A stretch of 50,329 nucleotides of DNA from an uncultured Verrucomicrobiota bacterium (lineage in GTDB: Bacteria; Verrucomicrobiota; Verrucomicrobiia; Limisphaerales; UBA9464): the NCBI GenBank assembly GCA_903880005.1, contig CAIRNV010000418.1, positions 1 through 50,329 of the forward strand, written 5' to 3'. The position numbers and the translations under genes were made by a program. A model generated the notes under the pieces. That model did no database searches. It worked only from the letters and a program-made list of their open reading frames with translations, and had not been told where the DNA came from. Of the stretch, positions 27,498 through 50,329 are shown in pieces. Each line of letters starts with the position of its first letter. Positions within the stretch are counted from its first letter, which is position 1.

Positions 27498-28871
27498 ATG
27501 CGCCGCATGAAGAAGAACTCCTCCTCCGCCATGGCCGCGATGACCGCCACGGCCCTGCTCTCCCTCACCCTGGCCGCCCAGACCAACGACCCACTTCGCC
27601 TCTCGCTGCAACTCGTCGCCGACGGTCTCGTCTCGCCCCTTTCCATGATCGTCTTGCCGGACGGCCGCAGGTTGGTGGCCGACCAGGTGGGGGTCGTGCG
27701 CGTGCTCAAGTCGGACGGCGGGTTGGAGGACGGCGCGGCGCTCGACCTGTCACCGCGGTTGTCGAAGGTGAACCACGGGTCTTTCGACGAGCGCGGCCTC
27801 CTTTGCATGGCCTTGGACCCCGCCTTTGCCAGCAACCGGCACGTGTTCGTCTCCTATACAGCGCCCCGCCGCGAATCGGCCCCGGCCGACTGGGACTGCA
27901 CGCTCCGCATCAGCCGCCTCACGCTGCCCGACGCCTCCCCCGTGCGCTTCGACCTCGCGTCGGAAAAGGTCGTGCTCGAGATCGACAAGCCCTACTTCAA
28001 CCACAACGGCGGCCGCCTAGCATTCGGACCCGACGGTTTCCTCTACGTCACCGTGGGTGATGGCGGCGGGCCGCAAGGATGCGACCTCGGCAACGGGCAT
28101 GCCCCCGAGGGCAATGGCCAGAACCTCGGCACCCTCCTGGCCAAGGTCCTCCGCATCGACGTCTCGAACCCGGGCCAGGACGGGTATCGCATCCCTGCGG
28201 ACAACCCGTTCGTGGGCGTCGCCGGCGTGCGCCCGGAGATCTGGGCTTACGGCGTCCGCAACCCGTGGTCCATCAGCTTTGATCGCGCCGGCGATCGGAG
28301 CCTCTTCATCGGGGACGTGGGCCAGATGCGCTGGGAGGAGGTCAACATCGTGCGAAAGGGGGGCAACCACGGATGGCCGGAACGCGAGGGCATGGAGGGC
28401 TTCGACCGGCAACATCCGGAGAAGGCCGCCGAACGTATCCCGGCCGCCGGCCGGCGCGGCGAGCCCTTCGTGGACCCCGTGGCCGTTTACAAGAACGTGG
28501 GGGCATTCAACGGCCAACCCGACGCCCTCGGGACCAGCATCACGGGCGGCTACGTTTATCGGGGCAAGGCCATCCCCGCGCTCGCGGGCCACTTCGTCCT
28601 CGGCGACTGGACCGGGGCCTGGGGCGCGCCGCAAGGCCGCCTCATGTACGCACGGCGCCCCTCGGGTCCCACCGCGCGCTGGTTCATCGAGCCCATCCGC
28701 ATCGACGGCCCAGGCAAGATGTTCGGAACGGTGTGCGCGTTTGCCGAGGACCGCGACGGCGAGTTGTACGTCCTCACGAACGGGTCCACGTCGCTGGCCG
28801 GCAGCCGGGGCAAGGTTTGGAAGCTCGTTCCCAAGGCGTCCGCCGCGCGCGATGCTGGGACGGGCAATTAA
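27498..28871 (+). CDS. Secreted PQQ-dependent sugar dehydrogenase (GSDH family)
   Basis: This 457-residue protein has an N-terminal signal peptide (MAAMTATALLSLTLAAQ) and a GSDH/sorbosone dehydrogenase propeller. Blocks include DGRRLVADQVGVVRVL, RGLLCMALDPAFASNRHVFV, RLAFGPDGFLYVTVGDGGG and EIWAYGVRNPWSISFDR. In the family PQQ and calcium bind at the top of the propeller; some members are only HHIPL-like binding proteins. It is the second GSDH protein in the window, without the heme domain of the one at 8611. An ATG at 27507 is an alternative start. Its TAA stop is completed by the first base of a family A element. Confidence 0.93.
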   Translation: MRRMKKNSSSAMAAMTATALLSLTLAAQTNDPLRLSLQLVADGLVSPLSMIVLPDGRRLVADQVGVVRVLKSDGGLEDGAALDLSPRLSKVNHGSFDERGLLCMALDPAFASNRHVFVSYTAPRRESAPADWDCTLRISRLTLPDASPVRFDLASEKVVLEIDKPYFNHNGGRLAFGPDGFLYVTVGDGGGPQGCDLGNGHAPEGNGQNLGTLLAKVLRIDVSNPGQDGYRIPADNPFVGVAGVRPEIWAYGVRNPWSISFDRAGDRSLFIGDVGQMRWEEVNIVRKGGNHGWPEREGMEGFDRQHPEKAAERIPAAGRRGEPFVDPVAVYKNVGAFNGQPDALGTSITGGYVYRGKAIPALAGHFVLGDWTGAWGAPQGRLMYARRPSGPTARWFIEPIRIDGPGKMFGTVCAFAEDRDGELYVLTNGSTSLAGSRGKVWKLVPKASAARDAGTGN

Positions 28872-29037
28872 GCCGGAACGACTCAGTTGGGTCGGTCGTG
28901 CCCGCTCGATCTGCTTCCGCAAATCCTTCGTCGTTCGCCCGTCACGGGCCTCGTGCCGTCCCGCGCCTCGCTCACCCCTCGGCTTGGGGAAGTATCTGCT
29001 TCGCCATCACTTCCCTCCCAACCGAATCGTCCCGGTT
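28871..29037. repeat. Family A inverted-repeat element, copy A4
   Basis: This is a 167-bp copy in the opposite orientation to A1. The ends are AGCCGGAACGACTCAGTTGG and the complement of ACCGGGACGATTCGGTTGG. The left end begins on the last base of the sugar dehydrogenase TAA stop. The element separates that gene from the CBM9-repeat gene on the same strand and could uncouple their transcription. Confidence 0.9.
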
Positions 29038-29134
29038 AAGGGTTAATTGGCGCGACCCGGGAAGAATGAACTTGAAAAACGTCGTCTTGGGTTCCCCCAT
29101 GAACAGGTTCCAACGGAAAGTTACACACAGTAGC

Positions 29135-32100
29135 ATGAAAACATCCATCCAGAGAAATCTCTCGTCGAGGGCGTTGTCCCTCTTCGAAGCGTGGGCGATG
29201 GCGCTGCTCCTATTCGGATTCAGCGCGTCGGCCAATGACATCGAGCCAGGCAAGGACAAGTACTCCGTCGTCTTCGCGCCCAAGAGCATCGTGCTCGACG
29301 GCGACTTGGGCGAGTGGGGCGGCGTGCCCGTCTTGGCTGACCCGAAGTTCGCCATCCCCAAGGGATCCGGCGAGAATGGCAAGTACGTCCTGTTCGAGGA
29401 ATACGGCGGCGGCACGTGGAGTGGCCCGGACGACCAGACGTCCGCCGTGCAGATCGTGTACGATGCCGAGAACGTGTACTTCGGCTTCGTCGTGACCGAC
29501 GACTACCACGAGAACGCCGCGAAGAGCGCGTGGAACGGCGACTCCATCCAGTTGATGATCGCCAGTGCGGATCGCACGCAGCAGGTGGCCCTCTACAACT
29601 ACGCCCTGGGCGGCGTGGAGGGTGACCTGGCCGACGTGATCGTGATGCACGAGGCCGGCCCCGGCGGCACGGAGGCCATTGTCACCCGCAATGGGACCAC
29701 CAAGAAGACCATTTATGAGATCAAGCTCCCCAAGGCCGCGCTGGGCCTCGAGAAGCTCGAAGGTGGGGTGAAGTTCGGCCTCGGCATGGCCATCAACGAC
29801 GGCGACGCCGGCCCCGGCCAGAATGGCCAAAAGGGTTGGGGCGGCCTCGGTGCCCACGCCATCGTGTTCGGCAAGACGCCGAGCCAGACCGCCGAGATCA
29901 CCTTGCTCAAGAAGAATGACATCGAGCCCGGCAAGGAGTTCTACACCGTCAACCGTGCACCCCGCGCCGTCTCCGTGGACGGCAAGCTGGACGAGTGGAC
30001 CGGCGTCCCCGTCCTCGCGGACCCGAAGTTCTCCATCCCCAAGGGCTCCGGCCCGAACGGCAAGTACGTCCTCTTCGAGGAATACGGCGGCGGCACGTGG
30101 TCCGGCCCGGATGACCAAACCTCGGCTGTGCAGGTGATCTTTGACACCGACAACGTTTATTTCGGCATCGTCGTCACCGACGACTACCACGAGAACGCCG
30201 CACGCAGCGCGTGGAACGGCGACTCCATCCAGTTGATGATCGCCAATGCGGACCGTTCCCAGCAGGTGGCCCTCTACAACTACGCCCTGGGCGGCGTGGA
30301 GGACGACCTGGGCGACGTGATCGTGATGCACGAGGCCGGCCCTGGAGGCACGGAGGCCGTCGTGACCCGCAACAGCACCACCAAGAAGACCACGTATGAG
30401 ATCAAGCTCCCCAAGGCATCCTTGGGCCTGGATGTGCTCGAAGGCGGCGTGAAGCTCGGCCTCGGCATGGCCATCAATGACGGCGACGCCGGCCCCGGCC
30501 AGAACGGCCAGAAGGGCTGGGGCGGCCTCGGTGCCCACGCCATCGTCTTCGGAAAGACCCCAGGCGAAACCGCCTTGCTCACCCTGAGCTCGGTCGTCCC
30601 CAACGACATCGAGCCCGGCAAGGAATACTACACCGCCAGCGCGGTCACCCAACCCGTCGTCGTGGACGGCCAGTTGTCGGAGTGGGGCGGCGTGCCCGTC
30701 CTCTCGGACCCCAAGTTTTCCATCCCCAAGGGCTCCGGCGTGCTGGGCACCGGCAAGTACGTCCTCTTCGAGGAATACGGCGGCGGGACCTGGTCCGGCC
30801 CCGACGACCAAACCTCCGCCGTGCAAATCGTCTATGACGCCGAGAACGTCTATTTCGGCTTCGTCGTGACCGACGACTACCACGAGAATGCCGCGCGCAG
30901 CGCGTGGAACGGCGACTCGGTCCAGTTGATGATCGCGACGGCCGACCGCCAGCAGCAGGTCGCCCTCTACAACTACGCCCTCGGTGGCGTGGATGGCGAC
31001 CTCGGCGACGTGATCGTCATGCACGAGGCCGGCCCTGGTGGCACGGAGGCCGTCGTCACGCGTGATTCCGTGGCCAAGAAGACCTACTACGAGATCAAGC
31101 TCCCGGCCGCGGCCATCGGCAAGACCCCGCCGCTCAGCCTCGGCACTCAATTCGGCCTCGGCATGGCCATCAACGACGGCGACGCCGGCCCCGGCCAGAA
31201 CGGCCAAAAGGGCTGGGGCGGCTTGGGCGCCCACGCCATCGTCTTCGGCAAGTCCCCGAAGGAGACGGCCCTGATCTCCCTCGGCACCGCCTCGACGGGC
31301 TCCGACCGCCTGTTCCTCTCCGCCGTCAACCCCGGCATCGTCACGTTCAGCTTCCGTGCCAACGACCTCGGCAGCTCCATCGTGTCGCCCACCGGGATCA
31401 AGCTCACCATCGACGGTGCCTTGGTGCCCGTGACCGTTGCCCCCAAGAAGGGCGACGCCACCGACGTCACCCACACCCGTGCGCTGCCCTTCCCCGCCGG
31501 CGAACACACCTACCGGATCGAGGTCAAGGACACCCAGGGCAACACGGTCGTGGACTCGGGCCGGTTCACCTCGGCCGCGGTCGGCGTCCTCACGGCCGCC
31601 CATCAGGCGGTCTCCGTGGACAAGACCAAGCCCGGCTTCACCTGGCGCATCGTCCAGAACGAGGCCATGACCAGCACGTCCTTGGATGACGCCGAACTCG
31701 CCCTCCTCGGTACCCTCAAGGACGAGACCGGCGCGGTGATCAACAACCTCGCCGATCCTTATGGGACCGGTAACGCCCTGGATGTCGGTGTCGTGGACGG
31801 CGCGACCGTCAAGTTCCAGGTCGCCGGCACCTTCAACGTCAACTCCATCGGCGGAAACAACGGCGGCACCTTCGCCCCCGACGACCAGATGCCCGGCGTG
31901 CCGGGCGGCAGCGGCGGCGACTTCGGCATCGTCGCGGAGCTGACCACGTTCATGGAGTTGCCCTCCGGCGTCGTCACCTTGGCGATCGCCTGTGACGACC
32001 GCTTCCGCGCCCAAGGCGGACCCATCGGCAAGCCTGCCGACGGCGTGCTCCTCGGCGTGGGTGATCGTGAACTCAACGGCGCGACGTCCACCGGCCTCAT

Positions 32101-32476
32101 CCGGTTCTTCGTCCAAGACGCCGGCATCTACCCGATCCGCATCGTGTACCAGGACAACGGCGGCGCGGCCCACATCGAGGTCGCCAGCGTCCTCGCCAAC
32201 GGCGACAAACTGCTCGTCAACGACCTCGATAACGGCGGCCTGAAGACCTACCGCTCGGGCGTCGCCCCGGCGAAGTCCACGCTCGCCGTCGTGGGTGCCG
32301 TCCCGGCTCCCCTCAGCGGCTCCGCCTTGACCGGCGTGACCGTGTCCGAGGCCACCAAGACCATCACCGCCGACATCCCCGCCACCGGGTCCGCCGGCTT
32401 CTTGACCATCGCCCCGGGCGTCAAGATCAACTCGATCACGCGCGAGGGCAGCAAGCTGGTCATCAAGTACCAGTAA
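29135..32476 (+). CDS. Secreted protein with three tandem CBM9-like domains
   Basis: This protein of about 1113 residues has a signal peptide (ALSLFEAWAMALLLFGFSASA) and three repeats of about 227-229 residues beginning at about 34, 261 and 490. Each starts NDIEPGKD/E and resembles a family 9 carbohydrate-binding module (VDGQLSEWGGVPVL, NVYFGFVVTDDYH, WNGDSIQLMI). The core blocks are identical or nearly so in all three. An Ig-like part follows (about 725-800), then a C-terminal module from about 834 shared with the protein at 47966. No catalytic domain is seen, so a multivalent glycan-binding or surface role is likely. Start codons at 29066 and 29099 are also possible; 29135 gives the best signal peptide. 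An intrinsic terminator follows. Confidence 0.88.
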   Translation: MKTSIQRNLSSRALSLFEAWAMALLLFGFSASANDIEPGKDKYSVVFAPKSIVLDGDLGEWGGVPVLADPKFAIPKGSGENGKYVLFEEYGGGTWSGPDDQTSAVQIVYDAENVYFGFVVTDDYHENAAKSAWNGDSIQLMIASADRTQQVALYNYALGGVEGDLADVIVMHEAGPGGTEAIVTRNGTTKKTIYEIKLPKAALGLEKLEGGVKFGLGMAINDGDAGPGQNGQKGWGGLGAHAIVFGKTPSQTAEITLLKKNDIEPGKEFYTVNRAPRAVSVDGKLDEWTGVPVLADPKFSIPKGSGPNGKYVLFEEYGGGTWSGPDDQTSAVQVIFDTDNVYFGIVVTDDYHENAARSAWNGDSIQLMIANADRSQQVALYNYALGGVEDDLGDVIVMHEAGPGGTEAVVTRNSTTKKTTYEIKLPKASLGLDVLEGGVKLGLGMAINDGDAGPGQNGQKGWGGLGAHAIVFGKTPGETALLTLSSVVPNDIEPGKEYYTASAVTQPVVVDGQLSEWGGVPVLSDPKFSIPKGSGVLGTGKYVLFEEYGGGTWSGPDDQTSAVQIVYDAENVYFGFVVTDDYHENAARSAWNGDSVQLMIATADRQQQVALYNYALGGVDGDLGDVIVMHEAGPGGTEAVVTRDSVAKKTYYEIKLPAAAIGKTPPLSLGTQFGLGMAINDGDAGPGQNGQKGWGGLGAHAIVFGKSPKETALISLGTASTGSDRLFLSAVNPGIVTFSFRANDLGSSIVSPTGIKLTIDGALVPVTVAPKKGDATDVTHTRALPFPAGEHTYRIEVKDTQGNTVVDSGRFTSAAVGVLTAAHQAVSVDKTKPGFTWRIVQNEAMTSTSLDDAELALLGTLKDETGAVINNLADPYGTGNALDVGVVDGATVKFQVAGTFNVNSIGGNNGGTFAPDDQMPGVPGGSGGDFGIVAELTTFMELPSGVVTLAIACDDRFRAQGGPIGKPADGVLLGVGDRELNGATSTGLIRFFVQDAGIYPIRIVYQDNGGAAHIEVASVLANGDKLLVNDLDNGGLKTYRSGVAPAKSTLAVVGAVPAPLSGSALTGVTVSEATKTITADIPATGSAGFLTIAPGVKINSITREGSKLVIKYQ
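29234..31282 (+). repeat. Three in-gene direct repeats of about 681-687 bp
   Basis: The units start at 29234, 29915 and 30602 (periods 681 and 687 bp) and the third ends near 31282. Long DNA stretches are shared, for example AAGTACGTCCT and TACGGCGGCGG, and most differences are at third codon positions. The third unit has a small insertion before GTGLKYV-like sequence (VLGTGKYV) and another near KTPPLSLG. The pattern indicates fairly recent duplication or ongoing gene conversion. Confidence 0.88.
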
Positions 32477-35500: not shown

Positions 35501-36353
35501 GACCGGGGACGGCGTGATCCAAATCCTGGAGGCGTGGCGTTCGGGTGCGGATTGGCGGCCGGTCCACGACCGGACCTGGCTGTCACAAGGCCTGTCCAAG
35601 GTGGCATCCGAGTTCAAGACCCACGGCGAATTCTCCCAGGCCACCGCGCCCGCCCTCCTCCGGCAAATCGGTGCCACCAACCCCCCATGGGTCGGGGCCA
35701 CCGAGTTCTCGTCGATGGTCCTTCTGAATCGCGGCGGAAAGTTTGCCTCCATGCCCCTGCCCCCGGAGGCACAGCGAGCCCCCATGTTTTCCGTCAACGT
35801 CGGCGACCTCGATGGCGATGGCATCCAGGACCTGTTGTGCACCCAGAACTTCTTCGGGACGGCGTCGGACATCACCCGCGAGGACGGAGGCTTCGGGCTC
35901 GCCTTGCGCGGTCGGGGCGACGGCACGTTCGTCGCGTGGGACGCGGAGGCGCTGGGCATCCGTGTGCTGGGTGAGCAACGAGGCGCGGCCCTCGGGGATT
36001 TCGACCACGACGGCCGCCTCGACGTCGCGATCACGCAAAGTCGCGGTGCGACCCGCCTTCTTCGCAATCGATCGGCGATTCCCGGATGGCGCGTGGCATT
36101 GAAGGGCGGCCCGGGCAACCCGGATGGCGTCGGCACGGAATTGAGGGCCGAGGACGAGGGCGGTCGCCTCGGGCCGGTCCAGACCGTGGGCGCCGGCAGC
36201 GGCTACTGGTCGCAGGATGCACCCGTTCGCATCCTGACCAGCCCCAACAAAGCGGTTGCCCTGCGTGTACGTTGGCCAAATCGTCCCGAGGTGCGCCTTC
36301 CCTTGAATCCCTCGGACCGCTTGGTGGACGTCCCGATTTCCCCCGCACCATGA
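32598..36353 (+). CDS. Secreted FG-GAP/VCBS repeat protein with two UnbV-like domains
   Basis: This protein of up to 1251 residues has a hydrophobic export segment (WFLAATTLFLAAARLLA) and two similar halves. Each half is a propeller of FG-GAP calcium loops (such as IGDVDGDGWADIYL, DIDGDGDLDLY, DVDGDGDLDVW) followed by an ASPIC/UnbV-like domain: the first at about 575-660, with TQSQEMIAGGRYLSSDE, the second at about 1163-1250, with GAGSGYWSQDAP. Such proteins are exported, and some are linked to carbohydrate use, but the function is unknown. GTG codons at 32640 or 32679 would give a more usual signal peptide. Its TGA stop overlaps the next ATG (ATGA), so the SUMF1-like gene is translationally coupled. 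Confidence 0.92.
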   Translation: MGETPAATLGSIHPVNAWKTIKDLGAPVHGPRRSPFQGLPWFLAATTLFLAAARLLASSSPVATRSVAPSATDKVGFRPMPPADTGLAFTNSMTGDLYLTNAVAHNGAGVAIGDVDGDGWADIYLCNLEGPNQLFRNRGQWRFDRMDQPQVACADQRSTGAALVDVDGDRDLDLLVNGIGVGTRLFLNDGLGHFAEKTGSGLSTTASATSMALADIDGDGDLDLYCTHFIDVMRLADPSTRFALTRKGDGWEVSKINGESTRSAKWKGRFEATPDGKVRELPEIDGFYRNEGQGRFTPIENEAGTFSDAAGNPIPPYRDWGLAVMFRDINGDGLPDLYVCNDNTSPDRIWIQHAPGRFKELETTRLRHTSRSAMGVDFADVDRDGRDDFFVVDMLAREHRFRMTQLVRDRPTRAEIEAAEGRPQFNRNTLFLGQPGGYFAEVAWMAGLAASDWTWSTLFLDVDLDGLEDLLVTNGFEFDVMDQDSHNEIKDGGRRLGEAQLKRSMQMHPRWRTRNAAFRNLGHARFEPAPQWGFDLEGISYGMAAGDLDNDGDLDLVINNLNAAAAVYQNTAPAPRVAVRLRGQSPNSAGIGARISIVSPRMTQSQEMIAGGRYLSSDEPLRVFAFDPKLDAGARLQVRWRSGRETVVDGLQANHIYDVAEPNAPAPVAPPPPPPATARFEDLSHTLNHQHADEEFDDWALQATLPRRLSQLGPGVAWFDVDGDGWEDLLVAGGRGGSLGFLRNQQGQSWVAVPGMPQASGDQCAILGWHDGRGGRHVLASVSNMESPPGSPSRIDVHPATSMTRPEGLAIGSHAPGAMVTADVDGDGDLDVWVGGRGRAGRYPEPAPSQWWLNDGGRLVLDARRSAAFSSLGMATGACAVDLDRDGDPDLVVATDWGPIRVFINDGGGFADATEAWGLKDGTGLWTGIATGDFDGDGLPDLVCGNWGRNTQYELYRPADIRLYYGDWTGDGVIQILEAWRSGADWRPVHDRTWLSQGLSKVASEFKTHGEFSQATAPALLRQIGATNPPWVGATEFSSMVLLNRGGKFASMPLPPEAQRAPMFSVNVGDLDGDGIQDLLCTQNFFGTASDITREDGGFGLALRGRGDGTFVAWDAEALGIRVLGEQRGAALGDFDHDGRLDVAITQSRGATRLLRNRSAIPGWRVALKGGPGNPDGVGTELRAEDEGGRLGPVQTVGAGSGYWSQDAPVRILTSPNKAVALRVRWPNRPEVRLPLNPSDRLVDVPISPAP

Positions 36354-37138
36354 AGAGTCCCATGCATCACATCGCGGTTGCCGGAGCACTGGCCTTGGTC
36401 GCAACCGCCACCGGCTGCAACCGGGACGCCAACCCGAACCCACCGACGGGCCCCGCGCAGACCTTGGTGCCCCTTACCAACATGGTTCGCATCCCTGCCG
36501 GGACGTTTCAGCGCATCCGCTACCCCGTGACGTTGACGCGGGATTTTTGGATGGGGCGATACGAGGTCACCCAGGGCGAGTTCCAACGGGTGATGGGCAC
36601 CAACCCCAGCCATTTCGCCGGCCTGAGCAACCATCCGGTCGAAAAGGTCTCCTTCATCGCCGCCAGCAATTACTGCGTGCGCGTAACCCAAGCCGAGCGC
36701 GAGCAAGGACGCTTGCCGGCGCCCTTTGAGTATCGCCTCCCCACCGAGGCCGAATGGGAATACGCGTGCCGGGCCGGCAATACGAATCGGTTTCACTTCG
36801 GGCACGACGTGGCCGAGGGCGACGCCTACGCGTGGACGGCGGAAAACTGCGAGGCCACCACGCATCCCGTGGGCCTCAAGAAACCCAACGCATGGGGCTT
36901 GCACGACATGCACGGCAACGTTTGGGAATGGTGCTCCGACTGGTTCGAGCCCTATCCCCCCAAGGCGCTGACCGACCCGACCGGCCCCGCCAACGTCGGC
37001 ACCAACAAGTACAAGGTTTTCAAGGGTGGCGGATGGAACCAAGACTTGGTCTATGGCGGTGCTTCGAGCCGCTTCATGATGGCGCCGTCCAACAGCATCC
37101 ATTTTGTTGGGTTCCGCATGGTCCTCGCCCCGCGTTGA
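36350..37138 (+). CDS. SUMF1-like (formylglycine-generating-enzyme fold) lipoprotein, probably non-catalytic
   Basis: This 262-residue protein has a short signal peptide ending in ATGC (Cys23, lipobox-like), then a SUMF1/FGE-sulfatase-modifying domain. Blocks are MVRIPAGTFQRI, FWMGRYEVTQGEFQRVMG, YRLPTEAEWEYACRAGN, GLHDMHGNVWEWCSDW and the end FKGGGWNQ...FVGFRMVL. True FGE enzymes carry two copper-binding cysteines in the C-terminal block; here that block (about residues 228-262) has none. It should not make formylglycine and is better seen as a binding or scaffold domain. Start 36350 overlaps the stop of the FG-GAP gene by 4 bases, so the two are made together and may form a complex at the envelope. 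Confidence 0.92.
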   Translation: MKSPMHHIAVAGALALVATATGCNRDANPNPPTGPAQTLVPLTNMVRIPAGTFQRIRYPVTLTRDFWMGRYEVTQGEFQRVMGTNPSHFAGLSNHPVEKVSFIAASNYCVRVTQAEREQGRLPAPFEYRLPTEAEWEYACRAGNTNRFHFGHDVAEGDAYAWTAENCEATTHPVGLKKPNAWGLHDMHGNVWEWCSDWFEPYPPKALTDPTGPANVGTNKYKVFKGGGWNQDLVYGGASSRFMMAPSNSIHFVGFRMVLAPR

Positions 37139-42668: not shown

Positions 42669-43850
42669 TCACGTCTGGCTGAGGCGCTGCACCGGGGCGT
42701 CATGGTACAGGGCATGCGCCTCCCGCAGGATTGCGGGGATGCGGTCTGCGAAGGGGCTCCGGGACACGGCGGAGGCCAGGCCGGAGGGGTCCATCCGCCC
42801 GACATGCTCGCCGGGAAACCAGTGGTCCGCGTTGCCGAGCATGTTGTAGCGAAACTTGGCCCACTCGGTGAGCCCCAACGCCTTCGCGTAGGTCCAGATG
42901 CGGAGGATTTCCACGACGTTGACCTCGCCCGGGACGTCGAAGTATTCCGGAAGGCCGGCCCACCAACGACGGCACCATTCGGCCCCGTGCACCTCCTCCA
43001 ACCGCTGGCGAAGGCGGCGTTCAAGGGGTTCCACGACGTCCGCCGCCCGCTCGTAGTGCTCCAGCGCGGCCACGTGCTCGTCGAAGTCCGACGGCCGTGC
43101 CGCGCCCAGCGACAACGTGTGCACCTCGGGCCTGGCGAGGCAGTAAAGGTCGTTGAATTGCATCGGGGACAACGGCGCGCACAACGGGCGCATCTCCGGG
43201 AGTTCCAGGTAGAGCTTACCGCCCTTGTCATTCGGGCTGATGATGAACACGCCCATGTCGCGCTGCGCCGCCTCGGCGATGCACGGGCGGTTCAGGTCGT
43301 TCACCAGGTACCAGTGCAGGTTCACGTAGTCGAACTCGTCGCTCCGGATCGCCTCCGAGATGACCCCGGGCGTCGCATGGGTGCTGAAGCCCACGAATCG
43401 CACCCGGCCCTCGCGTTGCAATTGGCGGCAGACCTCCAGGCAGCCGCCCCGGCGCAGCGTCTCGTCCAGGTGCCCCCGGTGATTGATCCCGTGGATCGAC
43501 AACAAGTCCACGTGGTCCAGCCCGAGGTTCCTCATCGACGTCTCGAAGGTGTCCAGGAACTCACGGGCGGTCGGCTTGGGCATCACCTTGGTCTGCACGA
43601 TCAAGGACTCCCGACGGAACCTCGCCAACACGGGGCCCAACTGCATCTCCGAGGAACCGTAGCCACGCGCCGTCTCGATGTGGTGGATCCCCAGCTCGAC
43701 GGCCCGCGCCACCGTGGCCTCCAGGTTGGACTGCACGTCCGGTTGCACCGTCTCCCACGGGACATCCGACCATGACTGCTGGAACCGCATGCCCCCGCAC
43801 GAGAAGACCGGCATGCGAAGGTTGGTGCGCCCGAAACGACGATACTTCAT
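42669..43850 (-). CDS. Aldo/keto reductase family protein with C-terminal extension
   Basis: This 393-residue protein has an aldo/keto reductase barrel in its first 260 residues. Tyr64 in ARGYGSSE, Lys88 in IVQTKVMP and His120 in LLSIHGINH are the catalytic residues; the fourth, normally Asp, is Glu59 in IHHIETARGYG. NADPH-binding blocks are less clear. The C-terminal 130 residues include EEVHGAEWCRRWWAGLPEY, with one Cys only, so the ferredoxin-type iron-sulfur end found in related long members is absent. I start at 43850 (MKYRRFGRTNLRMPVFSCGG), the usual family N-terminus; an ATG at 43940 would overlap the divergent promoter region. Substrate unknown. Confidence 0.9.
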   Translation of the reverse strand: MKYRRFGRTNLRMPVFSCGGMRFQQSWSDVPWETVQPDVQSNLEATVARAVELGIHHIETARGYGSSEMQLGPVLARFRRESLIVQTKVMPKPTAREFLDTFETSMRNLGLDHVDLLSIHGINHRGHLDETLRRGGCLEVCRQLQREGRVRFVGFSTHATPGVISEAIRSDEFDYVNLHWYLVNDLNRPCIAEAAQRDMGVFIISPNDKGGKLYLELPEMRPLCAPLSPMQFNDLYCLARPEVHTLSLGAARPSDFDEHVAALEHYERAADVVEPLERRLRQRLEEVHGAEWCRRWWAGLPEYFDVPGEVNVVEILRIWTYAKALGLTEWAKFRYNMLGNADHWFPGEHVGRMDPSGLASAVSRSPFADRIPAILREAHALYHDAPVQRLSQT

Positions 43851-43963
43851 GGACCTTGCTTGCCATGTCCCAACGCCCAAGGACAGCGGATTGCTGCGCT
43901 CGCCCGCCCGGGATTTGTGCTCGCCACGCAACAACATCACGGCAGCATCTTAGCGAAATCCCC

Positions 43964-46228
43964 ATGAAGTCGCCGCGCGCAGCCTTCGCCGTCGCCCTTG
44001 CCACGGCCGCCTCCGTCCACGCCGAGCTCCCCGTCGTCGCCGTCCCCGAGTGGCAGCCCTTCCGCGCCCAGGTCTTGCGCGTGGCGGACGCCCTCGATGT
44101 CATCGGCGCGCCACTTGCGCCGGAAGAACGACGGGCGCTCGACGCGGCGCTGGCGGAGCCCACGGCGGCCCTCGCCGCGGCCAAGGTCCAGGCCATCCTC
44201 GATCGCCACGCCGTGCTCGGCGTGCACGTCAACCCCGAGATGCGGGTCAAGGTCCAACCCGGCGACGCCGCGCCGCGCCTGGTGGAGAACGGGTGGCGCG
44301 CCTTCCTCGTCAAGGTCCACAACGAGGCAGGCACCACGGCCGTGCTCCGCCTCAGGAGCCCCCAGGCGGGCGCCGTGGCCGGTTCCACCGCCGCCGACGT
44401 CCCGGACCGCTGGCTCGCGCTCGAGTCGTTCTCGGCCCAGCCCCTTCGCCCCGAGCTGGGCGGCCTCCCGCTCGAGTACCGCGTCGTCCAGCTCTACTCG
44501 CGCGACCGCGGCCAACGCGAGGCCAAGATCGCCGCCGACGTCGGCCAAGGAACCCAGGACCTCGGGTTCCGCGGCGAGGCGAGCATCCTGTTCCAGTCCG
44601 CCCCCGCCCATCCCGTGCGGCTCCGGGTACGCGACGAACACGGCAAGCCCACCACCGCCGCCTTCCACGTCACCGACGCCCAAGGCCACGCCTACCCCCT
44701 CCAGTCGAAGCGCATCGCCCCGGACTTCTTCTTCCACCCCCAGGTCTATCGCGCCGACGGCGAGGAACTCCGGCTGCCGGACGGCGCCTACACCGTGGTG
44801 TTCCAGCGAGGGCCCGAGTCCGTGCCCGAGAAGCGCGCCTTCGAGGTCCGCGGGGGTGGGCAGGAGCTGGACTTCCAGGTCCGGCGCTGGATTGACCCGT
44901 CCCGGATGGGCTGGATCTCCGGCGACCACCACATCCACGCCGCCGGCTGCGCCCATTACAGCAAGCCCACCGAGGGGGTCCATGCCGACGACATGATGCG
45001 TCACGTGCTCGGCGAGGACCTCAAGGTGGGGGCCAACCTCACCTGGGGCCCCTGCTTCGACTACCAGAAGCAGTTCTTCCGCGGAGTCGATGACCCCGTG
45101 TCCCGCTTCCCCTACCTGCTGCGCTACGACGTCGAGGTCAGCGGGTTCGGCTCCCATGACTCCGGGCACCTGTGCCTCCTTCGGCTTCGCGAGCAAATGT
45201 TCCCCGGCGGGACCTCCATGCACCACTGGCCCAAGCTGGGGCTCAACACGCTCCGCTGGGCCAAGCGCCAGGGCGCCTTGGTCGGGCCCGCCCACTCCGG
45301 CTGGGGACTCGAGGTGAAGACCAAGGAGCTTCCCAACCACGAGCCCGCCCCGTTCAACGGCATCGGAGCCAACGAATACATCGTCGATGTCACCCACATG
45401 GTCCCCGGCCCCGACGGCCAACCCGTCCCCGCCGTGGACTTCCTCTCCATGGTGGACACGCCCAGCGTCTGGGAACTCAACGTCTGGTACCACACCCTCA
45501 ACGCCGGCTACCGGACGCGCATCAGCGGCGAGACCGACTTCCCCTGCATCTATGGCGAGCGCGTCGGACTGGGCCGCAGCTACGTCAAGCTCCCAGCCCA
45601 ATGGACCTACGAGGATTGGTGCGAGGGCATCCGGGCCGGACGCAACTACGCCTCCGACGGCTTCTCCCACCTCCTGGACTTCAAGCTCGAATTCCAAGGC
45701 AAGTCCGTCGCGATGGGTGAGGACGGATCCGAGCTCGCCCTCCAACGCCCCGGCATGATCAACGCCCGCGTTCGCGTCGCCGCGCACCTCGACGACCAAC
45801 CCGACGCCTCCATCGCCTCGCGGCCCTATTGGGAAAAGCCCTACTGGCACCTTGAGCGCGCCCGGCAAGGGACGTCCCGCGAGGTCCCCGTCGAGCTGCT
45901 CGTCAACGGCCTGCCCGTCGCCCGCCGCATGATCGTCGCCGACGGCACCGTCCGCGACCTCGCCTTCGAGACGGAGGTCGAGGTCAGCTCCTGGGTCGCC
46001 ATCCGCATTCTCCCTAGCTCCCACACCAACCCCATTTGGGTCACCGTCGGAGGCAAGCCCGTCCGCGCATCCCGCAAGTCCATCCAGTGGTGCCTCGACG
46101 CCGTGGACCGTTGCTGGAAGAACAAGGAACGCTTCCTCAAGGGCGACGAACACGCCCAAGGCGTCGCGGCCTACGACCACGCGCGCGCCGCCTACAAGGC
46201 CCGCCTCTCGGAAGCCGTCGCCGACTAG
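43964..46228 (+). CDS. Secreted CehA/McbA-type metallohydrolase
   Basis: This 754-residue protein has a signal peptide (AAFAVALATAASVHA). About 300 residues of beta-rich sequence follow, and then a PHP-like metallohydrolase domain of the CehA/McbA kind. The metal motif is GDHHIHAAG (Asp321, His322, His323, His325), followed by HYSKPTEGVHADDMMRHV, VGPAHSGWGLE and TDFPCIYGERVG. CehA and McbA hydrolyse carbaryl, but the many verrucomicrobial and planctomycete relatives are exported and have unknown substrates. The sulfatase gene begins 11 bp behind it, so the two are one operon. The divergent gap of 113 bp to the aldo/keto reductase should hold both promoters. Confidence 0.9.
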   Translation: MKSPRAAFAVALATAASVHAELPVVAVPEWQPFRAQVLRVADALDVIGAPLAPEERRALDAALAEPTAALAAAKVQAILDRHAVLGVHVNPEMRVKVQPGDAAPRLVENGWRAFLVKVHNEAGTTAVLRLRSPQAGAVAGSTAADVPDRWLALESFSAQPLRPELGGLPLEYRVVQLYSRDRGQREAKIAADVGQGTQDLGFRGEASILFQSAPAHPVRLRVRDEHGKPTTAAFHVTDAQGHAYPLQSKRIAPDFFFHPQVYRADGEELRLPDGAYTVVFQRGPESVPEKRAFEVRGGGQELDFQVRRWIDPSRMGWISGDHHIHAAGCAHYSKPTEGVHADDMMRHVLGEDLKVGANLTWGPCFDYQKQFFRGVDDPVSRFPYLLRYDVEVSGFGSHDSGHLCLLRLREQMFPGGTSMHHWPKLGLNTLRWAKRQGALVGPAHSGWGLEVKTKELPNHEPAPFNGIGANEYIVDVTHMVPGPDGQPVPAVDFLSMVDTPSVWELNVWYHTLNAGYRTRISGETDFPCIYGERVGLGRSYVKLPAQWTYEDWCEGIRAGRNYASDGFSHLLDFKLEFQGKSVAMGEDGSELALQRPGMINARVRVAAHLDDQPDASIASRPYWEKPYWHLERARQGTSREVPVELLVNGLPVARRMIVADGTVRDLAFETEVEVSSWVAIRILPSSHTNPIWVTVGGKPVRASRKSIQWCLDAVDRCWKNKERFLKGDEHAQGVAAYDHARAAYKARLSEAVAD

Positions 46229-46239
46229 CCGCCCAGCCC

Positions 46240-47832
46240 ATGACCACCGGTTCCCTTCTGGTCCTTGCAGCACGGCGCGTTCGCGCGGGCGCGTTGCTCC
46301 GCCGGATGCTTGGGCTTCTGGCCGCGCTCGCCTTGCCCGCGCTCGCCGAGGCTCCTCGTCCCAACGTCCTGCTGGTGCTCGCGGACGACATGGGGATCGG
46401 CGACATCAGCGCGTTGAACCCGTCCAGCAAGTGGCGCACGCCCGCGATCGATCGGCTGGCAAGGGAGGGACGCATCTTCACCGACGCCCACTCGGCGTCC
46501 GGGGTCTGCACGCCCAGCCGTTACGCGTTGTTGACGGGACGCTACCCATGGCGCGGCCGCCTCAAGGCGAACGTGCTCAATGGGTACGACGGGGCCTTGG
46601 TCGAGCCCGGGCGCATGACGTTGGCCCGGCTGTTCAAGGACGCCGGGTACGCCACGGCCATGGTGGGGAAGTGGCACCTCGGTCTCGAATGGGCGCGACG
46701 CTCGACGAACCAGGTGGACGTGGACTACTCGCGGCCGTTCTCAGGCGGGCCGCTGGACCACGGCTTCGAGCGGTACCACGGCATCAGCGCGTCGTTGGAC
46801 ATGCCCCCATACGTGCACCTCGTGGACGACCGCGTGCCAGTCCCGCCCTCGGGCAACATCGCCCACAACACCGGTCTCCAGATGTGGCGCGCCGGGGCCG
46901 TCGGGCCGGACTTCCGGCACGAGGACGTCCAGGGGCGGTTCTTTGGGAAGGCGCGGGAATTCTTGGGACAACGGGCGGCCAGCCAGGACGGGCGCCCCTT
47001 CTTCCTTTACCTCGCCTTGGCGTCGCCCCACACACCGATCCTCCCCTCGCCCGCGTACCGGGGCCGGTCCGGGGCGAATGCCTACGGCGACTTCATGCTG
47101 GAGCTGGACGACGAGCTGGGGAGGCTCCTGGGCCTGCTGGACCAGACCGGGCAGGCCAGCAACACGATCGTGGTGTTCACGTCCGACAACGGATTCGCGC
47201 CCGTTGCGGACTGGAAGGGCTTGAGGGCGATGGGACACGACCCGAGCGCGGGGTTCCGCGGCCACAAGGCCGACCTGTTCGAGGGAGGGCATCGCATTCC
47301 ATTCATCGTTCGATGGCCCGGGCGCGTGCCCGCCGGCAGCCGGTGCGCGGCGACGATCGGGCACGTGGACTTGCTGCGGACGTTTGCCGCGATGTTGGGG
47401 AGGAAGTTGCCGGATGGCGTAGGCGAGGACAGCGGCAATATCCTCGCCGCGCTGACGGGTGCAGAGGCCAACGCCGAGGGCCGGGCGTTCCTGGTCAGCC
47501 AGTCCAGCAACGGCTCGTTTTGCATCCGCGACGGGCCATGGAAGCTGGCGTTGGCACCCGATTCCGGCGGATGGAGCGAGCCCAAGCCCGGGAGCGCGGA
47601 GTCCGCCGCCCTGCCGCGGCTTCAGTTGTACCGACTGGACACCGACCCCGCCGAGCGAACGAACCTCGTGGAGGCACACCCGGCCGTCGTTGCGCGCATG
47701 AGCCTCGCCCTCAAGCAGTCCATGCAAGACGGACGCAGCACCCCGGGCCCACGGGGGGCCATGGTTTGGCCCGCCTCATGGCCCCAAGCCTCATGGACGA
47801 ACCACATGCCAGGACCACGCCCCGCATTGTGA
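46240..47832 (+). CDS. Secreted sulfatase (arylsulfatase family)
   Basis: This 530-residue protein has a signal peptide (MLGLLAALALPALAEA) and the alkaline-phosphatase/sulfatase fold. RPNVLLVLADDMGIGD supplies the metal-binding Asp49-Asp50, and VCTPSRYALLTGRYP holds the formylglycine site, CTPSR with Cys90, a consensus for aerobic Cys-type sulfatases. VGKWHLGLEW and FTSDNGFAP are further catalytic blocks. Activation needs a formylglycine-generating enzyme, and the SUMF1-like protein at 36350 lacks the required cysteines. The start 46240 is 11 bp behind the metallohydrolase stop; an ATG at 46306 is an alternative. Substrate likely a sulfated glycan or ester, from the family. Confidence 0.94.
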   Translation: MTTGSLLVLAARRVRAGALLRRMLGLLAALALPALAEAPRPNVLLVLADDMGIGDISALNPSSKWRTPAIDRLAREGRIFTDAHSASGVCTPSRYALLTGRYPWRGRLKANVLNGYDGALVEPGRMTLARLFKDAGYATAMVGKWHLGLEWARRSTNQVDVDYSRPFSGGPLDHGFERYHGISASLDMPPYVHLVDDRVPVPPSGNIAHNTGLQMWRAGAVGPDFRHEDVQGRFFGKAREFLGQRAASQDGRPFFLYLALASPHTPILPSPAYRGRSGANAYGDFMLELDDELGRLLGLLDQTGQASNTIVVFTSDNGFAPVADWKGLRAMGHDPSAGFRGHKADLFEGGHRIPFIVRWPGRVPAGSRCAATIGHVDLLRTFAAMLGRKLPDGVGEDSGNILAALTGAEANAEGRAFLVSQSSNGSFCIRDGPWKLALAPDSGGWSEPKPGSAESAALPRLQLYRLDTDPAERTNLVEAHPAVVARMSLALKQSMQDGRSTPGPRGAMVWPASWPQASWTNHMPGPRPAL

Positions 47833-47965: not shown

Positions 47966-50329
47966 ATGAGCACAAACTCCCAAAGTCTGACGGGGCACGG
48001 TCGCACCATGGTGCGTTCCGCCGCCATCGCGGCCTTGCTGGGCGCGGCCCTTTCGGCCAACGCCCAGAAGGTCTTCTTCGAAACCTTCGAGGGCGTCACC
48101 CTCGGCACCAGCAAGGAAGAGGCCGCCGGCTCGGTGGGCGTCTGGACCAAGACGCCCCCGACGGGCTGGACCCTGGACGACTCCCAGATGCCCGGGATTG
48201 GCAATCCTGCCACCGACGGCGTCGTCGAGTGGGCCGGGTGGAGCTTCGCCAACAAGGACTGGTGGGTTCGCGTCGCCGGCGACCAACGCCGCGCCGACTT
48301 CACCTTCGGCACCGGCACCGTCCTCATCGCCGACCCGGACGAATGGGATGACGCCGCGCACGCCAAAGGTCTTTTCACCAGCTTCATCTCGACGCCCGAA
48401 ATCGACCTCACCGGCGTGGCCGCCAACTCCCTCGTCCTCGCCTTCGACTCGTCGTGGCGTCCCGAGGGCAAGGACGACGCCGGCGCCAGCTTCCCCACCG
48501 CCGAGGACGGCTCGCCCATCAACAACCAAACCGGCCTCGTTCGCGTCACGTTCAACGCCGGCTCCACCAACGAGATCGTCCGCTTCGAGTCCACCCGGAC
48601 CCTCGATGACGGATCGGACAACCCTTACTTCAAGGAGGACAAGACCAAGTCCGACGCGTCCAACCCGGACGAGATCTCCAACACCAACGAACCCTTCATC
48701 GTCCCCCTCGGCAACCCCGCCGGCGGCAAGGTCAAGCTCACGCTGGGCATGATCCTCGGCGCCAACGACTGGTGGTGGGCCGTCGATAACATCGCCATCG
48801 GCGTTCCCCCGCTCGTCACGGGCGTCTCCGGCAACGGCGTCAGCGCCCGCGCCCGCATCTCCGAGGCCCTCGGCAAGAACGTGGACGACACCAAGCCGGT
48901 CACGCTGAGCATCGACGGCGCGGTGGTCCCCGGAGCCCAGATCTCCCGTGACGGCAGCCTCGTCTATGCCGGCGCCAGCCAGGCCCCCAAGGTGTTCACC
49001 CCGGGCTCCAAGCACACGGTCTCGGTGACCTTCAGCACCACCGACGGCCGCACCCTCACCGACGGCGGCGAGTTCATCGCCCCCAGCTTCACGACCGTCG
49101 CCAGCACCCCCGCCGTCATCACGGCCACCGTCACCAGCCCGTCGTACTTCACCGTGGATGCCTCCAAGGCCCCCACCTTGAAGCTCAATGGCACCTCCGT
49201 GACGCCCACCTCGGTCACCCCGTTCACCACGGACACCACCTCCGGCCTCACCATCCGCTACGGCGTCGCCAATCCGTTGCCGCCCGGCTCGGCCAACACC
49301 TTCGAGGTCACCTTCACCACCACCGACAACGTCCAGGTCGTCGATGCCGTGAAGTTCGTGGCCGCCAACTACAAGACCCTCGACGCCCAGTTGGCCACCG
49401 CCCTCGGCACCGCCTCCCAGCCCGGCATGCGATGGCGCACCCACCAGCTCGCCACCGGCCGTGACAACAACACCGCCTTGGTCGAGGAACAATTGAAGGG
49501 CGCGCTCGGGCCTTCCATACACGATACCACGGGCCAAAACACCCAGGGGTACTTCGACATCAACGTCGTTAACTTCGAGCAGAATGGCGCCGCAGCCGGC
49601 ATCTTCAGCTCCAATGGCCTCGACGACCTGTACGCCCCCGAGGACGTCATCCCGGGCATCCCGGGCATCCTCCCCGATGGCAACACCAGCACCGACAACA
49701 TCGGCGGCGAGGCCCTCACCTTCGTCGAGATCCCCGCAGCCGGCATCTACACGATGGTCGTGCGCTCCGACGACGGCTTCCAAGTCTCGGCCGGCATCCT
49801 GAGCAACCCTGTCTTCCAAGTCCTCGGCGAGTTCAACGGCGGACGTGGCGACGCTCCCACCGAGTTCTACTTCCAAGCCACCAAGGCCGGCGTCTATCTC
49901 TTCCGCCTCCTCTGGTACGAAGGCGGCGGCGGAGCCTCCGTCGAGTGGTACACCGTCAATGCCAGTGGCACCCCCGCCCTCGTCGGCGGCAGCCAGACCG
50001 GCGCCCTCAAGGCCTTCAAGTCCCGCCCCGGCGGCGAGCCGACCCTCACCTCCATCCCCGCCACCGTCGCGGCCCAACCCAAGGGCGCCGAACTCTTCGA
50101 GGGTGAGTCCACCACGCTCGTCGTGGCCGCAAACGGCGACAACCCGATCTCCTATCAATGGAACAAGAACGGGGTCGCCATCCCCGGTGCCACCAAGGCC
50201 ACGCTGACCCTCTCCAAGGTCACCGCCGCCAGCGCCGGCAGCTACACCGCCACCGTCTCCAACGCCGGCGGCACCAACACCTCCCTCGCGGCCGTCATCT
50301 CGGTCGTCGCACGCTCCCGCTCCAAGGTC
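47966..50329 (+). CDS. Secreted multidomain protein, partial (runs off the window)
   Basis: The frame is open from ATG 47966 to the last base: 788 codons, no stop. A signal peptide (VRSAAIAALLGAALSANAQ) is followed by a jelly-roll-like domain (VFFETFEGVTLG, FISTPEIDLTGVAANSLVLA, about 35-275), then Ig-like segments (about 285-480). A module at about 487-687 (GMRWRTHQ, PGIPGILPDGN, RSDDGFQV, FRLLWYEGGGGASVEW) is shared with the CBM9-repeat protein. The last 95 residues are an Ig domain (SYQWNKNGVAIPGATKATL, SAGSYTATVSNAGG). A catalytic domain could follow outside the window. It starts 134 bp behind the sulfatase stop. An ATG at 48008 is an alternative start. Confidence 0.9.
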   Translation, partial: MSTNSQSLTGHGRTMVRSAAIAALLGAALSANAQKVFFETFEGVTLGTSKEEAAGSVGVWTKTPPTGWTLDDSQMPGIGNPATDGVVEWAGWSFANKDWWVRVAGDQRRADFTFGTGTVLIADPDEWDDAAHAKGLFTSFISTPEIDLTGVAANSLVLAFDSSWRPEGKDDAGASFPTAEDGSPINNQTGLVRVTFNAGSTNEIVRFESTRTLDDGSDNPYFKEDKTKSDASNPDEISNTNEPFIVPLGNPAGGKVKLTLGMILGANDWWWAVDNIAIGVPPLVTGVSGNGVSARARISEALGKNVDDTKPVTLSIDGAVVPGAQISRDGSLVYAGASQAPKVFTPGSKHTVSVTFSTTDGRTLTDGGEFIAPSFTTVASTPAVITATVTSPSYFTVDASKAPTLKLNGTSVTPTSVTPFTTDTTSGLTIRYGVANPLPPGSANTFEVTFTTTDNVQVVDAVKFVAANYKTLDAQLATALGTASQPGMRWRTHQLATGRDNNTALVEEQLKGALGPSIHDTTGQNTQGYFDINVVNFEQNGAAAGIFSSNGLDDLYAPEDVIPGIPGILPDGNTSTDNIGGEALTFVEIPAAGIYTMVVRSDDGFQVSAGILSNPVFQVLGEFNGGRGDAPTEFYFQATKAGVYLFRLLWYEGGGGASVEWYTVNASGTPALVGGSQTGALKAFKSRPGGEPTLTSIPATVAAQPKGAELFEGESTTLVVAANGDNPISYQWNKNGVAIPGATKATLTLSKVTAASAGSYTATVSNAGGTNTSLAAVISVVARSRSKV

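Follow-up and report, generated by a model that had tools for sequence, protein, structure and literature searches.

The question raised by this locus is what kind of domain is shared by two secreted proteins, P0001 and P0002, that are encoded in a 50,329-nucleotide stretch of DNA from an uncultured Verrucomicrobiota bacterium. This stretch, referred to here as the window, is a complete contig, C418, in the fragmented draft genome G000. An earlier note had described the shared segment as a C-terminal module built of ordered sequence blocks, could place it in no named family, and suggested that it might be a PA14-like, lineage-specific sorting or binding domain. The domain is real and was correctly spotted, and it is a divergent branch of a kind already known, the PA14/DcisD lectins. 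We consider it highly probable that the segment is a divergent lectin module of this type, carried on secreted proteins and specific, or nearly so, to one bacterial order.

Two homologous segments in multidomain proteins

The features of the two proteins are collected in Table 1. Residues of P0002 are counted there from the start of the ORF 28373..32476; residue 834 of the earlier note was counted from Met255.

Table 1. Features of P0001 and P0002 (positions in the window; the two block rows give residue numbers)
Feature	Position	Strand	Basis or remarks
P0001, secreted multidomain protein, 788 aa	47966..50329	+	ATG at 47966, open at contig end
Two Ig-like domains preceding P0001 module	48869..49375	+	blastp segments from residues 302 and 411
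PA14-like module of P0001, residues 487-688	49424..50030	+	blastp, family profiles
Blocks of P0001 module			GMRWRTHQ 487, PGIPG 563, SDDGF 601, AGVYLFRL 641, GGGGAS 653
Asp602-Asp603, P0001	49769..49774	+	aligned with DcisD pair D136-D137 of MhPA14
Glu652-Gly-Gly-Gly-Gly-Ala657 loop, P0001	49919..49936	+	aligned with MhPA14 Ca1 loop D181-Q-G-G-A-A186
Ig (I-set) domain after P0001 module, residues ~702-775	50069..50290	+	Pfam I-set/Ig_2/Ig_3
P0002, CBM9-repeat protein	29135..32476	+	likely Met is residue 255 of ORF 28373..32476, start chosen by eye
Three CBM9-like repeats, P0002	29234..31252	+	PF06452, 93.3 bits, 3 stretches; outer limits by eye
Ig-like domain preceding P0002 module	31367..31585	+	blastp
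PA14-like module of P0002, residues 1088-1296	31634..32260	+	blastp, family profiles
Blocks of P0002 module			GFTWRIVQ 1088, PGVPG 1174, CDDRF 1207, AGIYPIRI 1250, NGGAAH 1262
Asp1208-Asp1209, DcisD-like pair, P0002	31994..31999	+	alignment
Asp1261-Asn-Gly-Gly-Ala-Ala1266 loop, P0002	32153..32170	+	differs from MhPA14 Ca1 loop in Asn for Gln alone
Extreme C-terminal tail of P0002, conserved, ending LVIKYQ	32288..32473	+	candidate sorting/anchoring domain

A check of the sequence finds the shared blocks in place and in order in both proteins, although the NxAxxExxLxG-like block, which is present, is alike between the two only loosely. In blastp the proteins align over 295 aa at 87.0 bits (E=2e-21, 28% identity), a span that includes the Ig-like domain ahead of the module. 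The local alignment score of the segments is 207, the mean for 2000 residue shuffles of one of them being 39.0 (sd 6.3, maximum 79). A leave-out family profile was made by removing from 65 modules the 15 with at least 45% identity to a window copy, the window copies included, and the remaining 50 modules recovered both window copies at E<=7.3e-52 (for 5000 sequences), with 188 bits for P0002 and 177 bits for P0001 (best domains 187.5 and 174.5); the same profile reported no match among 704 reversed ORFs. Chance similarity is ruled out by the shuffles and the leave-out profile, and the two window segments are homologous.

The description of the segment as C-terminal needs correction, as the shared segment is real but not strictly C-terminal: in P0001 an Ig domain lies between it and the end of the contig, and in P0002 a tail of 62 residues comes after it. 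P0001 is incomplete, because the window is the whole contig and ends at 50329. Its N-terminus is signal-peptide-like by eye, and an N-terminal domain, two Ig-like domains, the module and the last Ig domain follow in that order. The two Ig-like domains ahead of the module have no Pfam match, and both of them align in blastp with the Ig-like domain of P0002. The homologue of P0001 in genome G006 (L046, 72% identical) continues past the P0001-like part with a second domain of the N-terminal type (by eye), a LamG domain and an LVIRY tail. P0002 has three CBM9 repeats, the Ig-like domain, the module and the tail; the three repeats are closely similar to one another, which suggests recent duplication.

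Distribution of the family and its probable place among PA14 domains

Modules of this family are about 210 residues long, and G000 has 11 of them in 9 proteins by our count from the profile-search listings. An insert interrupts the module of the C376 protein and the third module of the C259 protein, and the closest sister module in this genome is that of C325 (59% identical). Searching verrucomicrobial genomes with a profile built from both segments, which the earlier note had proposed as a check, gave matches in 31 of 39 genomes (G000 and relatives) at E<=1e-3 with this two-row profile. In a sample of 196 genomes from the order, a 39-row profile at E<=1e-15 found the module in 125, and in 64 of the 111 good genomes of that sample, as against 3 of 240 in a phylum-wide sample; G000 is counted in the 31, the 125 and the 3, and no more than 15 or 12 candidates per genome were scored in these searches. 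In the phylum sample G088 had one match, which lacks the N-terminal part and has an internal stop, and G042 had nine, seven of them without the N-terminal part. No relative was found on viral contigs and no match in the plasmid collection; a scan of genome contigs gave one relative, L015. The family is almost confined to one bacterial order in the samples searched, and the suggestion that it is lineage-specific has held up well.

Near restriction to one order is also what might be expected of a lineage-specific sorting or anchoring domain, the proteins looking secreted and the module often lying just ahead of a C-terminal tail. The position of the module is against this. Modules are internal, with up to three per protein, and in some cases lie hundreds of residues away from both ends; after them come Ig or LamG domains or a separate tail; it is this conserved tail that occupies the extreme C-terminus, and the only frames ending in a module are those cut by a contig end (C492). 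A role as C-terminal sorting domain was rejected on this internal position, and as the profile similarity of the module to lectins, given below, also argues against sorting or anchoring, we find that role hardly credible.

With regard to named families, the earlier view that there is none holds for each window sequence alone. Pfam PA14 (PF07691) has a gathering cut-off of 24 bits, which neither window copy reaches: P0001 scored 13.7 bits as whole protein, 15.7 in the genome search and 16.1 as segment, where the match covers the second half of the module only, and P0002 had no match at E<=1. NCBIfam gave no match to either window protein at E<=1. Single-sequence searches of solved structures gave a monobody as best match for the P0001 module (E 0.46) and nothing at E<=10 for that of P0002; in such searches PA14 comes into view with the profile only.

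For the family as a whole that view fails. Of 39 modules, 22 match Pfam PA14 at E<=1 (best 2.1e-6) and 17 do not, and 16 match GLEYA (PF10528, cut-off 26.2) at the same threshold (best 2.3e-4). The C325 sister module has 27.6 bits with PF07691 in the genome search and 23.9 bits in the whole-frame scan. The three-module C259 protein is above both cut-offs, with 28.5 bits for GLEYA and 43.7 bits for PA14, the latter being a sum in which no single stretch passes E 0.01. When 28 family proteins were compared with NCBIfam, 3 matched the fimbrial model TafC (best 4.9e-9) and 5 an M36-peptidase model (best 1.1e-16), the latter presumably through the inserted protease-associated (PA) domain that is common to those peptidases.

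Among solved structures the 39-module profile matched MhPA14 of the Marinobacter hydrocarbonoclasticus Lap adhesin (PDB 6m8m, 5.1e-7), MpPA14 of the Marinomonas primoryensis adhesin (PDB 5j6y, 6x7j and others, about 1e-5) and the RTX protein 36gk (0.0088). A window-free profile of 23 rows was also used; its 16 omitted rows are the window copies, the majority of their close relatives, and six copies that are split or degenerate, and one of the rows kept, L022, has at least 45% identity to a window copy. The best solved match of this profile was MhPA14 (9.8e-8), followed by MpPA14 in the second half of the module (7.8e-6 to 1.1e-5), the next fold being at 0.32, and the similarity to solved PA14 lectins is significant. 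The yeast Epa/Flo lectins (Epa1, flocculin) were matched weakly by the 39-row profile over the Asp-Asp region (0.27-1.1, not significant) and are absent at E<=1 from the window-free profile matches. Comparison by hhalign of the family with six classical PA14 domains of G000 gave a probability of 91.2% (E 9.8e-7), the maximum for 30 column shuffles being 0.55%; the six come from eight tried of the ten over-cut-off places in G000 besides C325, with L104 and L109 left out. The likeness to PA14 suggested in the earlier note holds up at the level of the family. The classical PA14 domains above the Pfam cut-off are in contigs C29, C45, C369, C50, C74, C376 and C422, and one of them sits in the C376 protein alongside a divergent module.

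AlphaFold models made from three-row alignments (the two window copies and L015) had pLDDT of only 40.8 and 38.5, and a Foldseek search of the PDB with the first of these (40.8) had a best E of 0.18, with no PA14 named among the best 50 of 634 matches. Because of the low pLDDT we rest the fold assignment on the profiles, which point to a predicted beta-sandwich, with a putative cis peptide between the two aspartates, that would carry an exposed Ca2+. The N-terminal PGFxWRxxQ block (profile positions 1 to about 33-36) lies outside the best matches to solved structures, and one could therefore think of a distinct beta-sandwich family that acquired its Asp-Asp/Gly-rich metal site by convergence and shares no descent with PA14. 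Yet from profile position 34-37 onward the family aligns with MhPA14 over about 150 positions, the significant matches are PA14 lectins, and some members are near or above the Pfam PA14 and GLEYA cut-offs, so that convergence is in our judgement quite improbable.

The candidate calcium and sugar site

According to PMC6650083, MhPA14 holds Ca1 through Asp136-Asp137 and Asp181 and through the backbone of Gly183 and of Ala185, with Gln182 in contact with the sugar. For MpPA14, PMC8092209 gives a Ca2+ site of Asp110-Asp111 with Gln156, Gly157 and Asp159, and this DcisD site binds fucose and glucose-type sugars. Profile alignments place D602-D603, E652, G654 and G656 of P0001, and D1208-D1209, D1261, G1263 and A1265 of P0002, at the Ca1 ligand positions as described for MhPA14. 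Judged by sequence, both window copies have the two consecutive aspartates on the putative Ca2+-binding loop and, on the opposite loop, an oxygen-donor side chain (E652 or D1261) with Gly/Ala backbone carbonyls.

There are differences in detail. The loop of MhPA14 is D-Q-G-G-A-A and that of P0002 D-N-G-G-A-A, with Asn1262 in the place of the sugar-contacting Gln182 of the published account. By our own mapping from the profile alignment, the published sugar-contact residue Gln156 of MpPA14 is Gly in P0001 and Asn in P0002. The third-place residue of P0001 is Glu and not Asp, and about half of the 65 modules (Glu in 33) have an E-G-rich loop of this sort, which with the N-terminal part of the module distinguishes the family from MhPA14. 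A further residue of MhPA14, D113, listed as a structural ligand in PMC6650083, aligns with D577 of P0001 in the 39-row profile and is one place off in the 23-row profile, and because of this discrepancy the match is uncertain.

The 65 modules are distinct and cover more than 80% of the profile. Since they are related and come from loci that are mostly best matches, the counts and the Fisher p that follow are generous. The consecutive Asp pair is present in 57 and D, E, N or Q at the third place in 58, the two occurring together in 54; of the rest, 3 have the pair only, 4 the third place only and 4 neither. Losses go together, the third place being missing in 4 of the 8 modules without the pair and in 3 of the 57 with it (Fisher p 0.003, relatedness ignored). 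The majority of copies thus seem capable of binding, and a smaller number seem degenerate.

It is at this point that a purely structural role has to be weighed, in which the PA14-like fold would mediate protein-protein contact or form a stalk or spacer of a surface fibre, bind no sugar, and use Ca2+ for stability only. Tandem copies with Ig-like neighbours do resemble a stalk, the Asp pair is lost in 8 of the 65 modules, and two of the three Ca2+ of MhPA14 are structural according to PMC6650083. But the residues conserved in the family are those of the sugar-side Ca1 site, and the full set is retained in more than four fifths of copies, as counted above, which for us makes the structural role unlikely. 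The module probably binds glycans. In such a lectin the Ca2+ would be held by the two consecutive aspartates together with the side chain and backbone carbonyls of the Gly-rich loop, and would grip two neighbouring hydroxyls of the sugar. With the family profile and the metal-site residues at hand, sugar binding can be put to a direct test.

Gene context, the nested PA domain and the C-terminal tails

PMC6650083 places MhPA14 distally in an RTX adhesin, whereas the module described here has Ig, CBM9 or LamG domains as neighbours. Directly upstream of P0001 is a sulfatase gene (46036..47832), and farther upstream an FGE-sulfatase-type gene (36086..37138). This agrees with the account of Verrucomicrobia sulfatase neighbourhoods in PMC5615132, which counts PA14 as a carbohydrate-binding module in PSCyt proteins and proposes freshwater Verrucomicrobia as degraders of sulfated polysaccharides. 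The gene context suggests a role in polysaccharide use for the proteins concerned, and on secreted proteins with Ig-like, CBM9, LamG and tail regions the module may let the cell, its surface or extracellular proteins hold polysaccharides. As single-sequence Pfam searches miss this branch of PA14 in both window proteins and in 17 of the 39 modules, the glycan-binding capacity of the order is probably under-counted. For the 818-aa ORF (43772-46228, +) that comes directly before the sulfatase gene, Pfam gave nothing at E<=1e-5.

Two features of these proteins, the nested PA domain and the C-terminal tail, are perhaps more novel leads than the module itself. A PA domain is present in 4 of 28 family proteins. 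That it is nested in the module follows from coordinates for the C259 and C376 proteins and from reading for L033 and L035; it takes up residues 1019-1108 of L039 and residues 882-974 of L038, and is placed after the SDDGF strand and ahead of the strands of the second half. By reading, the site is about at the sugar-contacting loop L9 of MpPA14, as that loop is described in PMC8092209. In a partial literature search we found no paper on a protease-associated domain inserted into a PA14 domain.

The tail of P0002 belongs to a conserved type of about 60 residues that closes with LVIKY or a similar sequence at the stop codon and is also found in L039, L041, L045, L046, L047 and L040. Among 27 distinct tails from the fetched loci, 7 of which built the model, 26 reach to 3 residues or fewer from the stop codon, and one to 4. 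The tail occurs at 8 places in G000 and in 26 of 39 genomes, G000 included, and has no convincing match in Pfam, NCBIfam or the PDB (best Pfam 0.0057, NCBIfam 0.1). Ten further tail-bearing stretches include 6 with a Pfam domain (LamG, CBM9, Ig-like, PKD, DUF1349) and 4 without. It is a better sorting candidate than the module, and offers a way to approach what may be an unknown route of export or anchoring. The SprA model for type IX secretion had no match in G000, and as the control genomes were likewise without match this absence carries no weight.

More tentatively, and with doubts that outweigh our confidence, we can picture the order as carrying its own large set of surface glycan receptors, diverse in sequence and derived as an offshoot of PA14 with many copies in each genome, some with a PA insert near the place of the sugar-contacting loop that would act as lid or specificity element, and many exported by way of the LVIKY tail as an undescribed sorting domain and an unnamed route.

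Other module proteins (L048-L055 and L038) have at their C-termini an alternative tail, approximately GTL..A..V.GP(F/Y).PV.GA.SP....FYR. A number of divergent matches to the LVIKY tail seem to stand between the two kinds of tail, which may for this reason be related.
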